DNA from: a halophilic archaeon SHRA6
GTDB lineage: Archaea; Halobacteriota; Halobacteria; Halobacteriales; Haloferacaceae
DNA length: 64,000 nucleotides
Assembly (NCBI GenBank): GCA_005239175.1
Contig: SOPS01000001.1
Location: 248,001 to 312,000, forward strand
Direction: 5' to 3'
The position numbers were made by a program, and so were the translations under genes. The notes below the pieces were generated by a model. It was not told the origin of the DNA. It was given only the letters and a program-made list of their open reading frames with translations, and made no database searches. Below are positions 4,161 to 36,410 of this stretch, piece by piece (the first letter of the stretch is position 1; each line of letters starts with the position of its first letter).

Positions 4161-5177
4161 ATGAACATGCTCGTCGACGGTGAGTGGCGCACAGACACAT
4201 ACGAAAGCACGAACGAGGAGGGTGCGTTCGAGCGGAGCGAAACCGCGTTTCGCGACTGGATCGCCGGTTCGGACGTTCCCGGTCACGTTGACGCAGAGCC
4301 GAACGATCGCTTCCAGCCCGAGGCCGATCGCTACCACCTCTACGTTTCGTATGCCTGTCCGTGGGCGCACCGCGCGCTATTGGTACGAGCGCTCATGGGC
4401 CTCGAAGACGCCATCTCGGTGTCAGTCGTCGATCCCTGGCGGGGCGACGACGGCTGGCAATTCACCCCAGAAAAGGAGGGCACCACGCCAGATCATCTCT
4501 ACGGGTCGGACTACCTGCGTGAACTGTACGTGAAGGCCGATTCCAACGCGACCGGCCGGGTGACTGTACCCGTGTTGTGGGACAAAGACGAAGAGACGAT
4601 CGTCAACAACGAATCCCGGGAGATCATCCGGCAGCTCTCGACAGCGTTCGGCGAGCTTGCGAAAAATGACGTGGATCTGGTCCCCAAGGAGTTGCAACCG
4701 GAGATTGACAACACGATCACCGACATCTACGAGCCGATCAACAACGGCGTCTACCGCGCAGGCTTTGCGACCGAACAGGAGCCCTACGACGAGGCGATCG
4801 ACGAGCTATTCGGAGAGCTCGATCGCTACGACGAGCGGCTCGGCGAACAGCGCTTCCTCGCAGGCGATCGGCTCACCGAAGCTGACATCTGTATGTTCAC
4901 GACGCTCGTCCGATTCGATCAGGTGTACCACACCCACTTCATGTGCAACAAAAAGCAGATCCACGAGTACGAAAACCTCTGGCCGTACCTGCGAGACCTC
5001 TACCAGCTCCGCGGTGTCGCCGGGACGGTGAACATGGACCACATCAAAGAACACTACTACACGACCCATCCGGACGTGACGCCGAGTGGGATCATCGCAC
5101 GCGGACCAGATCTCGATTTCAGTGAGCCGCACGATCGCCACGAGCTCCCCGGCGAAATTCCAGCCGATCTGCGGTAA
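4161..5177 (+). CDS. Xi-class glutathione S-transferase / glutathionyl-hydroquinone reductase family
   Basis: 338 residues from the ATG at 4161. The thioredoxin-fold half carries YACPWAHR with Cys66, the catalytic motif of the Xi class (YqjG, PcpF, EcmB). A helical C-terminal half follows, with the typical DRLTEADICMFTTLVRFD and NLWPYLRDLYQ segments. These enzymes strip thiols from thiol-quinone conjugates. Haloarchaea are known to use gamma-glutamylcysteine instead of glutathione, so the physiological thiol is probably that compound (inference). A longer open frame upstream (from 4032) reads as non-homologous sequence. Tandem copies of the 3' end follow the stop. Confidence 0.9.
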   Translation: MNMLVDGEWRTDTYESTNEEGAFERSETAFRDWIAGSDVPGHVDAEPNDRFQPEADRYHLYVSYACPWAHRALLVRALMGLEDAISVSVVDPWRGDDGWQFTPEKEGTTPDHLYGSDYLRELYVKADSNATGRVTVPVLWDKDEETIVNNESREIIRQLSTAFGELAKNDVDLVPKELQPEIDNTITDIYEPINNGVYRAGFATEQEPYDEAIDELFGELDRYDERLGEQRFLAGDRLTEADICMFTTLVRFDQVYHTHFMCNKKQIHEYENLWPYLRDLYQLRGVAGTVNMDHIKEHYYTTHPDVTPSGIIARGPDLDFSEPHDRHELPGEIPADLR

Positions 5178-5179
5178 GC

Positions 5180-5229
5180 CGATCGCGGCAAAACTGCAGT
5201 AAGACGATCGCGGCAAAACTGCAGTAAGA
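5180..5229 (+). repeat. two perfect 25-bp tandem units echoing the upstream gene's 3' end
   Basis: Units 5180-5204 and 5205-5229 are identical. Each begins CGATCGCGGCAAAA and ends CTGCAGTAAGA. The genuine gene end just before (CTGCGGTAAGC around 5169-5179, stop TAA at 5175-5177) matches the unit's second half, and a third partial unit starts at 5230 (CGATTGGGG). Each unit therefore repeats a TAA-containing copy of the gene end. Confidence 0.9.
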
Positions 5230-5315
5230 CGATTGGGGCCACCCGTCAGTTGGGTAATCCCGGCGGTCCGTTCCGCTGACCGACCATTTTTGCTCGCGCC
5301 TCGCAAGGGGTGTGC

Positions 5316-32289: not shown

Positions 32290-32398
32290 AGCGGGCGATC
32301 GGACCGAACAAATATATGTCTCAGGGAACCGGCGGTTCGAGGCTCAAAAGCTGAGATTGAGACGGTGATCGAGAAGAAACGGTGCCGTCTTACCCGTC

Positions 32399-33007
32399 TT
32401 ACGCGATCCGCGCGAACGCGAGGTTGCCGCTGATGTTTTTGATGTAGATCTCGACCTCGTCGCCTTTCTGTGCGCCGGGGACGAAGATCGTGTACTTGCC
32501 CTTCTCGGCGACGCCGTCGCCCTTGCGGCCGGTGCCGGTGATCTTGACCTCGTAGGTCTTGCCCTCTTCGAGGTCCGGCACGTCGCGTTGGGCCTGTTTA
32601 CGCCGGCGTTTCGCGACTGGACGGAACGCACCACACGCCTCACAGCGGAGCATCTGGGTTCGGTTCTCCATGACGAGGCGAGTATCCGGCAAGCCACATT
32701 CCGAGCAGGTGACGTACTCCTCGATGTAGGCGTCGATCGCCGCAGAGAAATCCGACGGCGTAAACGTCCCGTTGTACCGCCCCCGGCCGTTTTCAAACTG
32801 TCCGGCGGTCCCGAGCTCACGCTGGATCGCACTGTGGAGGTGCTCTGGGTCCCGCGAGAGCGCGTCCGCGATCGCCGAGAGATTCGTCAGCCGCGTAAAC
32901 GCGCCGTCTTTCTGTGTTTCCGGGTCCGGAACCGACAGCCGCTCGTCAGAGCCGCTGAAGTCCGGGAGCTCATCCATCGCTCGATCGAGCCCTGCTTGGT
33001 AGTCCAT
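32399..33007 (-). CDS. translation initiation factor aIF2 subunit beta with TRAM domain
   Basis: 202 residues from the ATG at 33007. The aIF2-beta core has an alpha/beta domain and a C4 zinc ribbon (CSECGLPDTRL … LRCEACGA), and a TRAM domain with GKTYEVKITGTGRKGDGVA follows at ~145-200. The TRAM tail is a haloarchaeal addition; the standard archaeal subunit ends after the ribbon. It joins the alpha and gamma subunits to deliver initiator Met-tRNA. Confidence 0.9.
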   Translation of the reverse strand: MDYQAGLDRAMDELPDFSGSDERLSVPDPETQKDGAFTRLTNLSAIADALSRDPEHLHSAIQRELGTAGQFENGRGRYNGTFTPSDFSAAIDAYIEEYVTCSECGLPDTRLVMENRTQMLRCEACGAFRPVAKRRRKQAQRDVPDLEEGKTYEVKITGTGRKGDGVAEKGKYTIFVPGAQKGDEVEIYIKNISGNLAFARIA

Positions 33008-33091
33008 ATGCGAGGAAACGCCGGCGTGACGTATCAATTCTTGCATCTTCGTCTTCGCCGGCACCAACAGGAAATCACGCCGGGAGTGCCC

Positions 33092-34218: not shown

Positions 34219-34845
34219 ATGAGTAAGGTCACGTTCCGAGCCGACGACGATCTCGTCGCTCGGCTCGACGCGCTCGAGGTCTCGAAAAGCGAGGCCATGC
34301 GCCGAGCGCTGCGCTCATACCTCGACGACGCAGAACGTGACGCGTCTACCAGACAGTCAGACGATCCGCCGTCGAACGTAAACGATCGGCCGGTTGGATC
34401 GTTCGACGCGATGCTGACCGATCGCATCGACGAACGGATCGATCACCGTCTGTCCACGTTGCTCTCGGATCATCATAACCGAAAACCTGCCGAGGCGCCG
34501 CCGGTAACGGTGAATGTGACTATCGATGAGGCGGGCGTGCGGACTGGCCGATCGACCGAACAGACGAGCGAAACCGACACAGCGGGCACAGACGAACCGG
34601 ATACGAATCCCGCCGACAGCGCTGCCGAACCACGTAAGACACCACCAGCGCGGTCGGACGAATCAACCGAGTGTGGACAGTGCGGCGAGACGGTCGCACC
34701 CGAGCACGTATTCTGTCCAAACTGCGGCCAAAAGGCGGTACACCGGCTGTTCTGTGAGTGTGGCGACGAGATCCGATCGGACTGGGCGTTCTGTCCCAGC
34801 TGCGGCCGGCGAACACCAGCGGCGGATGTGTTACACAACGGGTGA
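34219..34845 (+). CDS. cdrL: CdrL: RHH regulator with double zinc ribbon
   Basis: 208 residues. An N-terminal ribbon-helix-helix (residues 1-40, MSKVTFRADDDLVARLDAL) is followed by a long acidic/Thr-rich linker and two C-terminal zinc ribbons (CGQCGETVAPEHVFCPNCG and CECGDEIRSDWAFCPSCG). This is the layout of CdrL, known from Halobacterium and Haloferax upstream of cdrS-ftsZ2. In those organisms it takes part in control of cell division genes. A GTAAGAC half-site (34634-34640) lies inside the gene and a palindrome of the same sequence follows the stop. Confidence 0.88.
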   Translation: MSKVTFRADDDLVARLDALEVSKSEAMRRALRSYLDDAERDASTRQSDDPPSNVNDRPVGSFDAMLTDRIDERIDHRLSTLLSDHHNRKPAEAPPVTVNVTIDEAGVRTGRSTEQTSETDTAGTDEPDTNPADSAAEPRKTPPARSDESTECGQCGETVAPEHVFCPNCGQKAVHRLFCECGDEIRSDWAFCPSCGRRTPAADVLHNG

Positions 34846-34851
34846 CACAAC

Positions 34852-34880
34852 GTAAGACAAATAGCCGTATTTTGTCTTAC
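34852..34880. promoter_or_regulatory. palindrome upstream of the cdrS-ftsZ2 TATA box
   Basis: GTAAGACAAAT at 34852-34862 and its near-complement ATTTTGTCTTAC ending at 34880 form an inverted repeat; the outermost seven bases match exactly with 15 bp between the arms. It ends about 14 bp before the TATA element, a good position for an activator or repressor. Candidate site for CdrL or CdrS. Confidence 0.65.
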
Positions 34881-34893
34881 ATCGCCGGTAGTT

Positions 34894-34900
34894 TTTTATA
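34894..34900 (+). promoter_or_regulatory. TATA box of cdrS-ftsZ2
   Basis: TTTTATA at the end of a T run. Start of transcription is expected near 34920-34926, leaving a leader of about 110-120 bases before the cdrS ATG, long for a haloarchaeon. That leader contains one GTAAGAC palindrome and a further pair of half-sites. Confidence 0.55.
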
Positions 34901-34924
34901 CCCTGCGGGTTAGGTTACCAATGC

Positions 34925-34942
34925 GTAAGACAGTCGTCTTAC
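34925..34942. promoter_or_regulatory. second GTAAGAC/GTCTTAC inverted repeat, over the likely start site
   Basis: GTAAGAC (34925-34931) and GTCTTAC (34936-34942) are separated by four bases. It overlaps the predicted transcription start, the usual place for a repressor. The spacer is 11 bp shorter than in the palindrome at 34852, one helical turn. Confidence 0.65.
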
Positions 34943-34986
34943 ACCGGGGCCGATCGTGGATTCGATTGCGCGATTCGGCCCAGATC

Positions 34987-35020
34987 GTGAGACGACTAAT
35001 GGCGATGTCGCCTGTCTTAC
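34987..35020. promoter_or_regulatory. third pair of half-sites in the cdrS leader
   Basis: GTGAGAC (34987-34993, one mismatch) and GTCTTAC (35014-35020) repeat the same half-site with a 20-bp gap. GTCTTAC is followed immediately by the Gly-rich Shine-Dalgarno-like CGGGGGAA before the cdrS ATG, so a bound protein could also affect translation or elongation. Confidence 0.4.
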
Positions 35021-35037
35021 CGGGGGAATACACAACT

Positions 35038-35220
35038 ATGGAGCGTGTGACACTACGGATTCCGAAGCAGCAGATCGAGGAGGTTGAACAGATGGTCGAA
35101 ACCGGCCAGTTCCCGAACCGGAGCGAAGCGATCCGGTCGGCAGTCCGGGAGATGCTGAGTGAACAGAGCGAGGCCGAGACGCGCCAACGGCCGACAGAGC
35201 GCAGCTGGGCGAAGGTGTAA
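35038..35220 (+). CDS. cdrS: CdrS: short RHH cell-division regulator
   Basis: 60 residues from the ATG at 35038; an in-frame ATG at 34921 would add 39 unconserved residues, and a purine-rich GGGGGAA sits 11 bases before the chosen start. The ribbon-helix-helix ([20 protein letters not shown] then [16 protein letters not shown]) makes up nearly the whole protein. CdrS in Halobacterium and Haloferax controls ftsZ2 and other division genes. It is two bases upstream of ftsZ2. Confidence 0.9.
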
Positions 35221-35222
35221 CT

Positions 35223-36410
35223 ATGCAGGATATTGTTCAAGAAGCCCTTGAGAACGCCGAAGCCGAAAAGCGCGAGATGGACGTCGACAGCGAGGATGAC
35301 GAGTTCGGCGATCCACGGATCGTCATCGTCGGTGCCGGCGGTGCCGGCAACAACACGATCAACCGGCTGTACAACATCGGTGTCGACGGCGCCGACACTG
35401 TGGCCATCAACACTGACAAACAACACCTCGAAATGATCGAGGCTGACACGAAGATTCTCGTCGGCAAGTCGCTGACGAATGGGCTCGGTGCTGGCGGCGA
35501 TCCGAGCATGGGCGAGCGCGCCACCGAAATGGCACAGGGGACGATCAAAGAGGTACTCGGTAACGCTGACCTCGTCTTCGTCACTGCCGGGATGGGCGGT
35601 GGCACCGGAACAGGTGCGGCACCGGTCGTCTCGAAGATCGCCAAAGAACAGGGGGCGATCGTCGTTGGAATGGTTTCGACGCCGTTCAACGTCGAGCGGG
35701 CTCGGACCGTCAAAGCCGAAGAGGGGCTCGAACAGCTCCGCAACGCGGCAGATTCGATCATCGTGCTCGACAACAACCGCCTGCTCGATTACGTCCCGAA
35801 CCTGCCGATCGGCAAGGCTTTCTCGGTGATGGACCAGATCATCGCTGAGACCGTCAAGGGGATCTCCGAGACGATCACCCAGCCGTCGCTCATCAATCTG
35901 GACTACGCGGATATGTCCACGATCATGAATCAGGGTGGCGTCGCCGTGATGCTCGTCGGGGAAACCCAGGACAAAAACAAGACCCAGGAGGTGGTCAACG
36001 ACGCGATGAACCACCCGCTGTTGGACGTCGACTATCGGGGTGCGTCTGGCGGACTCGTCCACATCACTGGCGGTCCCGACCTCACGCTCAAAGAGGCAGA
36101 GGGCATCGCCCACAACATCACCGAACGGCTCGAAGCGAGCGCGAACGTGATCTGGGGTGCCCGGATCCAAGACGAGTACAAAGGCAAGGTGCGCGTCATG
36201 GCGATCATGACCGGTGTTCAAAGCGCACAGGTTCTCGGCCCCACGACCCAAAAGCAGGCCGACAAATCCCGTGCGAGCATCGACGGTGGGCCTGATCGCA
36301 ACGGAAATACCAATGAGGCTCGATCGACAGCCACGAACAACAACTCCTGGCAGTCCGACGGCGGTCGTGACCAACTCGAGAAAAACAACGGTCTCGACGT
36401 GATCCGGTAG
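35223..36410 (+). CDS. ftsZ2: cell division protein FtsZ2
   Basis: 395 residues. The tubulin signature GGGTGTG is at residues 125-131, the nucleotide loop [14 protein letters not shown] at ~36-49 and the T7 loop as [11 protein letters not shown]. The N-terminal acidic extension and Asn/Ser/Asp-rich C-terminal tail are typical of haloarchaeal FtsZ. Placement behind cdrS identifies it as FtsZ2, which in Haloferax drives ring constriction after FtsZ1 scaffolds it. It converges with ncsA (26 bases between stops); a T-rich ATTTTTAT near 36432 may end the transcript. Confidence 0.95.

Follow-up and report, generated by a model that had tools for sequence, protein, structure and literature searches.

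The window, by which we mean the whole stretch of 64,000 nucleotides that was analysed, carries three neighbouring genes that are the subject of this work:

34219-34845, plus strand: cdrL; Pfam RHH_1 and DZR above the cut-off, CdrL_M below the cut-off
35038-35220, plus strand: cdrS, encoding a 60-aa RHH protein; Pfam RHH_1
35223-36410, plus strand: ftsZ2, encoding a tubulin homologue; Pfam Tubulin and FtsZ_C

CdrL consists of an N-terminal RHH domain, a variable linker and a C-terminal double zinc ribbon, and its beta-strand residues K3, T5 and R7 were invariant among the 14 CdrL proteins compared. A previous sequence-only reading of this DNA had placed RHH proteins on both sides of the repeats described below, and both CdrL and CdrS do match Pfam RHH_1. 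The cdrS start at 35038, rather than an ATG at 34921, is the one conserved in relatives. The ATG at 34921 lies directly 5' of heptamer a (below) and opens a 99-aa frame, 34921-35220, in phase with cdrS.

The gap between cdrL and cdrS, 192 bp in length, contains an array of GTAAGAC/GTCTTAC heptamers together with promoter and leader elements:

34852-34858, plus strand: upstream heptamer GTAAGAC, position -73 relative to the tight site
34874-34880, minus strand: upstream heptamer GTCTTAC, at -51; 52 of 101 promoters have the equivalent at -52
34892-34900, plus strand: TATA box TTTTTTATA; in 77 of 101 promoters the first TTWAWW begins 30 to 33 bp upstream of the tight site
34925-34931, plus strand: heptamer a, GTAAGAC, located at the predicted start site, where it forms the left arm of the tight palindrome; the palindrome is unique in the genome
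34936-34942, minus strand: heptamer b, GTCTTAC, right arm of the tight palindrome; conserved with it across the class
34947-34981, plus strand: predicted hairpin P2, GGGGCCGAUCG...CGAUUCGGCCC; mean z -2.32 over 82 leaders
34987-34993, plus strand: heptamer c, GTGAGAC, a variant of GTAAGAC; partner of heptamer d
35001-35012, plus strand: predicted small hairpin P3, GGCGAUGUCGCC; weak (mean z -1.06; chimera test 10/37)
35014-35020, minus strand: heptamer d, GTCTTAC; the last of the elements ahead of the start codon region; an exact copy in 99 of 101 promoters
35022-35029, plus strand: GGGGGAAT, downstream of heptamer d and ahead of the cdrS start codon; little or no variation in class-wide alignments

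Every site that the sequence-only reading had described around the cdrS-ftsZ2 promoter was confirmed in the sequence. The wide pair (34852 and 34874) has a spacer of 15, the tight pair a/b a spacer of 4, and the leader pair c/d, with one mismatch in c, a spacer of 20. TATA spacing puts the predicted start site at about 34922-34925, at or just before heptamer a, and thus heptamers a, b, c and d are all expected in the transcript. Downstream of heptamer d, GGGGGAAT is a candidate ribosome-binding site that could possibly pair with the 3' end of 16S rRNA.

We counted 14 copies of GTAAGAC in the window where 3.9 were expected, a number that was reached in 0 of 100 shuffles, and 5 of the 14 fall within the cdrL-cdrS gap. 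The pattern GTAAGAC-N{0,30}-GTCTTAC had two matches in the 3,359,672-bp genome, both around the cdrS-ftsZ2 promoter, and a reversed control pattern had none in the same genome. The genome scan that had been proposed earlier therefore finds the N4 and N15 palindromes nowhere else in these 3.36 Mb. Heptamers elsewhere in the window include two further groups. Two copies of GTAAGAC at 5160-5240 sit inside a short tandem duplication between two genes, with a unit of about 25 bp (CGATCGCGGCAAAACTGCAGTAAGA), for which we saw no relation to the division operon. Two copies of GTCTTAC in direct orientation, 9 bp apart, lie at 32387-32402, at the 3' end of a minus-strand gene (32399-33067) that by inspection encodes a TRAM-domain or aIF2-beta-like protein.

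The previous reading had also named conservation in orthologous promoters as a check, and the tight palindrome proved to be strongly conserved. We sampled 80 named haloarchaeal ftsZ2 loci, 79 of which included the cdrS promoter, and GTAAGAC-N4/5-GTCTTAC was found at that promoter in 79/79. Across the class, GTAAGAC-N3-6-GTCTTAC occurs in 374 of 391 Halobacteria genomes, which are not independent of one another, and nearly always as one copy each. Two genomes had two copies, and the reversed control matched in about 7 of the 391 (counted by eye). That the palindrome lies at the cdrS promoter was examined for 101 promoters, as against the 374 genomes that carry it. Outside the class but within the phylum, 5 of 312 genomes had a match compared with about 23 for the reversed control; the palindrome is at noise level outside Halobacteria. 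Among the 17 Halobacteria genomes without the standard palindrome, 14 keep the locus and have a variant at cdrS: a spacer of N2 (6), a right arm GTCATAC (3), a direct repeat GTAAGACggtGTATGAC (3), GTGAGAC (1) or ATCTTAC (1). The other three (G229, G348 and G362, 85-98% complete) jointly lack ftsZ2, the operator and CdrL, and their best ftsZ hits are FtsZ1-like, reflecting either assembly gaps or genuine loss of the entire locus.

What is held constant among promoters is the heptamer. The 101 orthologous promoters contain 487 GTAWGAC/GTCWTAC heptamers where about 7 were expected, and 90 of them have at least one at -80 to -45 from the tight site. This upstream heptamer is found in either orientation and at -52, -61 to -65 or -73 to -75; it is usually GTCTTAC at exactly -52, and in Natrialbales GTAAGAC at -65. 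The tight spacer ranges from 2 to 6 bp, a direct repeat replaces the palindrome in three species, and we saw an exact N15 pair in no genus other than that of the window. The heptamer itself is quasi-symmetric, GT-NNN-AC, with A or T as its central base, which leads us to infer one RHH dimer per heptamer. The binding unit is thus probably the heptamer, judging from these alignments, and variant promoters alter spacing or orientation and keep the heptamer, as one dimer per heptamer predicts.

These comparisons bear on an earlier argument from helical phase. Spacers one helical turn apart had been noted, which holds for 4 versus 15 and does not extend to the third pair with its spacer of 20. Binding on the same face of the helix had been proposed as well, and this proposal failed: neither spacing nor orientation is conserved across promoters while the heptamer stays constant, and so the argument is without basis and we rejected it.

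ChIP-seq in Halobacterium salinarum found a single reproducible CdrL site genome-wide, upstream of cdrS-ftsZ2, and the paper gives no binding motif (PMC7439475). One of our genomes, G018, is Hbt. salinarum by 100% bacterioopsin identity. Its cdrS promoter holds GTAAGAC, GTGAGACggtcGTCTTAC, GTAAGAC and GTCTTAC, in all four exact heptamers plus GTGAGAC, and this array falls in the region occupied by CdrL (ChIP region from PMC7439475). The near single-copy status of the palindrome, which is unique in the window genome and mostly present once in the 374 of 391, matches the single ChIP site. CdrL and the palindrome also share their taxonomic range: full-length CdrL was found in the variant-operator genomes searched, in none of 28 searched genomes from other classes, and in none of the three class genomes without ftsZ2 and the palindrome. 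Because the two have the same distribution and the CdrL ChIP site lies only upstream of cdrS-ftsZ2, we assign GTAWGAC to CdrL as its candidate operator, with good though not full confidence. The half-site had been thought perhaps undescribed, and we did not find GTAAGAC in the literature searched. The published deltacdrL strains bore second-site mutations, which obscure the CdrL regulon and the direction of its effect.

The second RHH protein at the locus, CdrS, could instead read the heptamers and autoregulate its own operon. In Hbt. salinarum, ftsZ2 does not reach full expression without CdrS (PMC7439475), and ChIP-seq in Haloferax volcanii gave 18 sites, among them ftsZ1 at -50, dacZ at -47 and psmB at -72 (PMC8406309). 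In Haloferax relatives we found GTCnGAC-N4-GTCnGAC in ftsZ1 promoters near the published CdrS distance, and GTCAGAC/GTCTGAC at dacZ in 5/5 species and at psmB in 3/4, again near published distances. This motif is related to the one at cdrS, and its match to the published CdrS motif rests on position and recurrence; we consider GTCnGAC-N4-GTCnGAC at ftsZ1 a likely CdrS operator. Among the haloarchaea examined, most also have the motif or a close variant directly 5' of the ftsZ1 BRE/TATA (loci L161, L156-L160, L162, L106-L112 and L184-L186). GTCNGAC-N4-GTCNGAC has no exact match in the window genome, and the ftsZ1 promoter there reads a variant, GTCAGACggagGTATGAC, that mixes both heptamer types and includes a GTATGAC half, a point in favour of CdrS, as is the GTCTGAC that about 20 promoters, most of them from Natrialbales, have in their leader. 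However, the cdrS promoter is missing from the 18 CdrS ChIP-seq sites, and its site is GTAAGAC-N4-GTCTTAC, not GTCnGAC-N4-GTCnGAC. Further, cdrS-ftsZ2 has a reportedly wide distribution among archaea (PMC7439475), whereas we find the palindrome restricted to the one class with CdrL. We consider it unlikely that CdrS rather than CdrL reads the heptamers. Auto- or cross-regulation by the two proteins, as the sequence-only reading had it, therefore fits the ChIP-seq data in its CdrL part, and CdrS is not the best candidate.

The two proteins appear to use sister operators that differ at heptamer position 3. Their putative contact residues are nearly identical (R3, T5 and R7 in CdrS; K3, T5 and R7 in CdrL), and given this similarity and the mixed ftsZ1 site, their specificities may overlap. 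A CdrL-CdrS heterodimer might even be imagined, with GTA-W-GAC made up of a CdrL half (GTA) and a CdrS half (GTC when read on the opposite strand). Such a heterodimer would account for the asymmetry of the cdrS operator beside a CdrS-type site that is symmetric (GTC-n-GAC), and for the lack of enrichment of symmetric GTANTAC, with 6 found and 11 expected in the 101 promoters. But homodimeric RHH proteins bind asymmetric half-sites too, such as NikR on GTATGA (PMC7055735), and CdrS ChIP does not report the cdrS promoter, making this the most improbable of the readings considered here.

The heptamers of the leader may instead be conserved for RNA reasons, a possibility that counts against the CdrL explanation. 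With heptamers fixed and the rest dinucleotide-shuffled, leaders folded better than shuffles (mean z -2.66; controls of equal length gave -0.42 in upstream DNA and -0.91 in coding sequence), and the cdrS leader probably folds. The Haloferax publication refers to a 5' UTR. The earlier description of a third pair in the leader was accurate, as heptamers c and d are present, and it left this probable folding unconsidered. The P2 segment lies between heptamers b and c and is divergent in sequence across species, and in 23/37 representatives its native halves pair better than 90% or more of the chimeras made between species, compared with 5/37 for control segments. Predicted hairpin P2 is thus well supported as being kept by compensation between species. 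A search of Rfam with the leader returned no credible match to a known RNA family.

One could therefore read the leader heptamers as RNA elements, with a:d and b:c helices and an alternative a:b hairpin, that control how the cdrS-ftsZ2 mRNA is translated or how stable it is. In line with this, ribosome profiling in Hbt. salinarum suggests post-transcriptional control of the operon (PMC8303175), and the a:d flanks and the b:c outer flanks show complementarity at a higher rate than shuffled partners do. The covariation of these flanks is modest once shared ancestry is considered: a tree-based analysis of the a:d flanks gave 2 and 4 coincident changes, and controls were similar. RNAalifold on 33 leaders returned the invariant a:b helix alone with no covariation, and on 23 Haloferacales leaders it returned a:d and b:c helices with little covariation. 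We regard the long-range pairing as suggestive. Heptamer b is also kept in 11 genomes without heptamer c, and RNA leaves unexplained the heptamer 5' of the TATA box in 90/101 promoters. Since the identical heptamer is found upstream of the TATA box, we rejected RNA as the sole explanation, and RNA control as the main role of the leader heptamers seems to us very unlikely. A dual role, in which the heptamers would serve as a CdrL operator in DNA and as interchangeable arms in the leader (a:b versus a:d plus b:c) that gate translation or stability of cdrS-ftsZ2, seems to us rather unlikely.

Taken as a whole, the repeats are best explained as a dedicated candidate operator array for CdrL, and we think this explanation is probably correct. 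In the mechanism we propose, one CdrL dimer would read each GTAWGAC heptamer. Two heptamers would make the tight site across the transcription start, with one or two further heptamers just 5' of the BRE/TATA region and another one or two in the leader. CdrL on the tight site would most likely block or tune initiation, and the upstream heptamer might add cooperativity or touch basal factors. CdrL, as the putative reader of the heptamers, would directly set the output of cdrS-ftsZ2; we lean slightly toward repression as its net effect. An RNA layer might contribute translational control of CdrS.

We compared this arrangement with known systems. It shares gene order, regulator and target region with CdrL and cdrS-ftsZ2 of Hbt. 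salinarum, and the G018 promoter has the heptamers; the motif is absent from that report (PMC7439475), and the heptamer array, its near single-copy status and its class-wide conservation are new here. The CdrS motif of H. volcanii also has two quasi-symmetric, N4-spaced heptamers near a division-gene promoter (PMC8406309), but it is GTCnGAC at ftsZ1, dacZ and psmB, whereas the cdrS operator is GTAWGAC and CdrS is unreported there. NikR is an RHH protein, and E. coli NikR is matched in sequence by CdrS and, weakly, by CdrL; the half-site of its operator, GTATGA-N16-TCATAC (PMC7055735), resembles GTATGAC. However, NikR has a fixed spacing and depends on nickel, whereas the cdrS operator has spacers of 2-6 or larger (4, 15 and 20 in the window, compared with GTATGA halves 16 bp apart) and the C-terminus of CdrL is a zinc ribbon. 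The RHH protein ParB/omega of pSM19035 recognizes 7-bp units that work in either orientation (PMC9499535), as we infer for CdrL, but these heptads are contiguous and the cdrS heptamers are dispersed over promoter and leader.

Leaderless mRNAs make up 72% of coding transcripts in haloarchaea, where a structured leader is regarded as untypical (PMC4983044). A probably folded leader of some 115 nt on a very abundant mRNA would be an exception, and could explain the translation mismatch reported for the cdrS-ftsZ2 operon (PMC8303175). For CdrL, a haloarchaeal regulator known to act on this division operon, the heptamer provides a precise candidate DNA target. For CdrL and CdrS, the findings point to paralogous regulators with operators that differ at a single heptamer position, which would make the wiring of an archaeal division circuit testable by point mutation.
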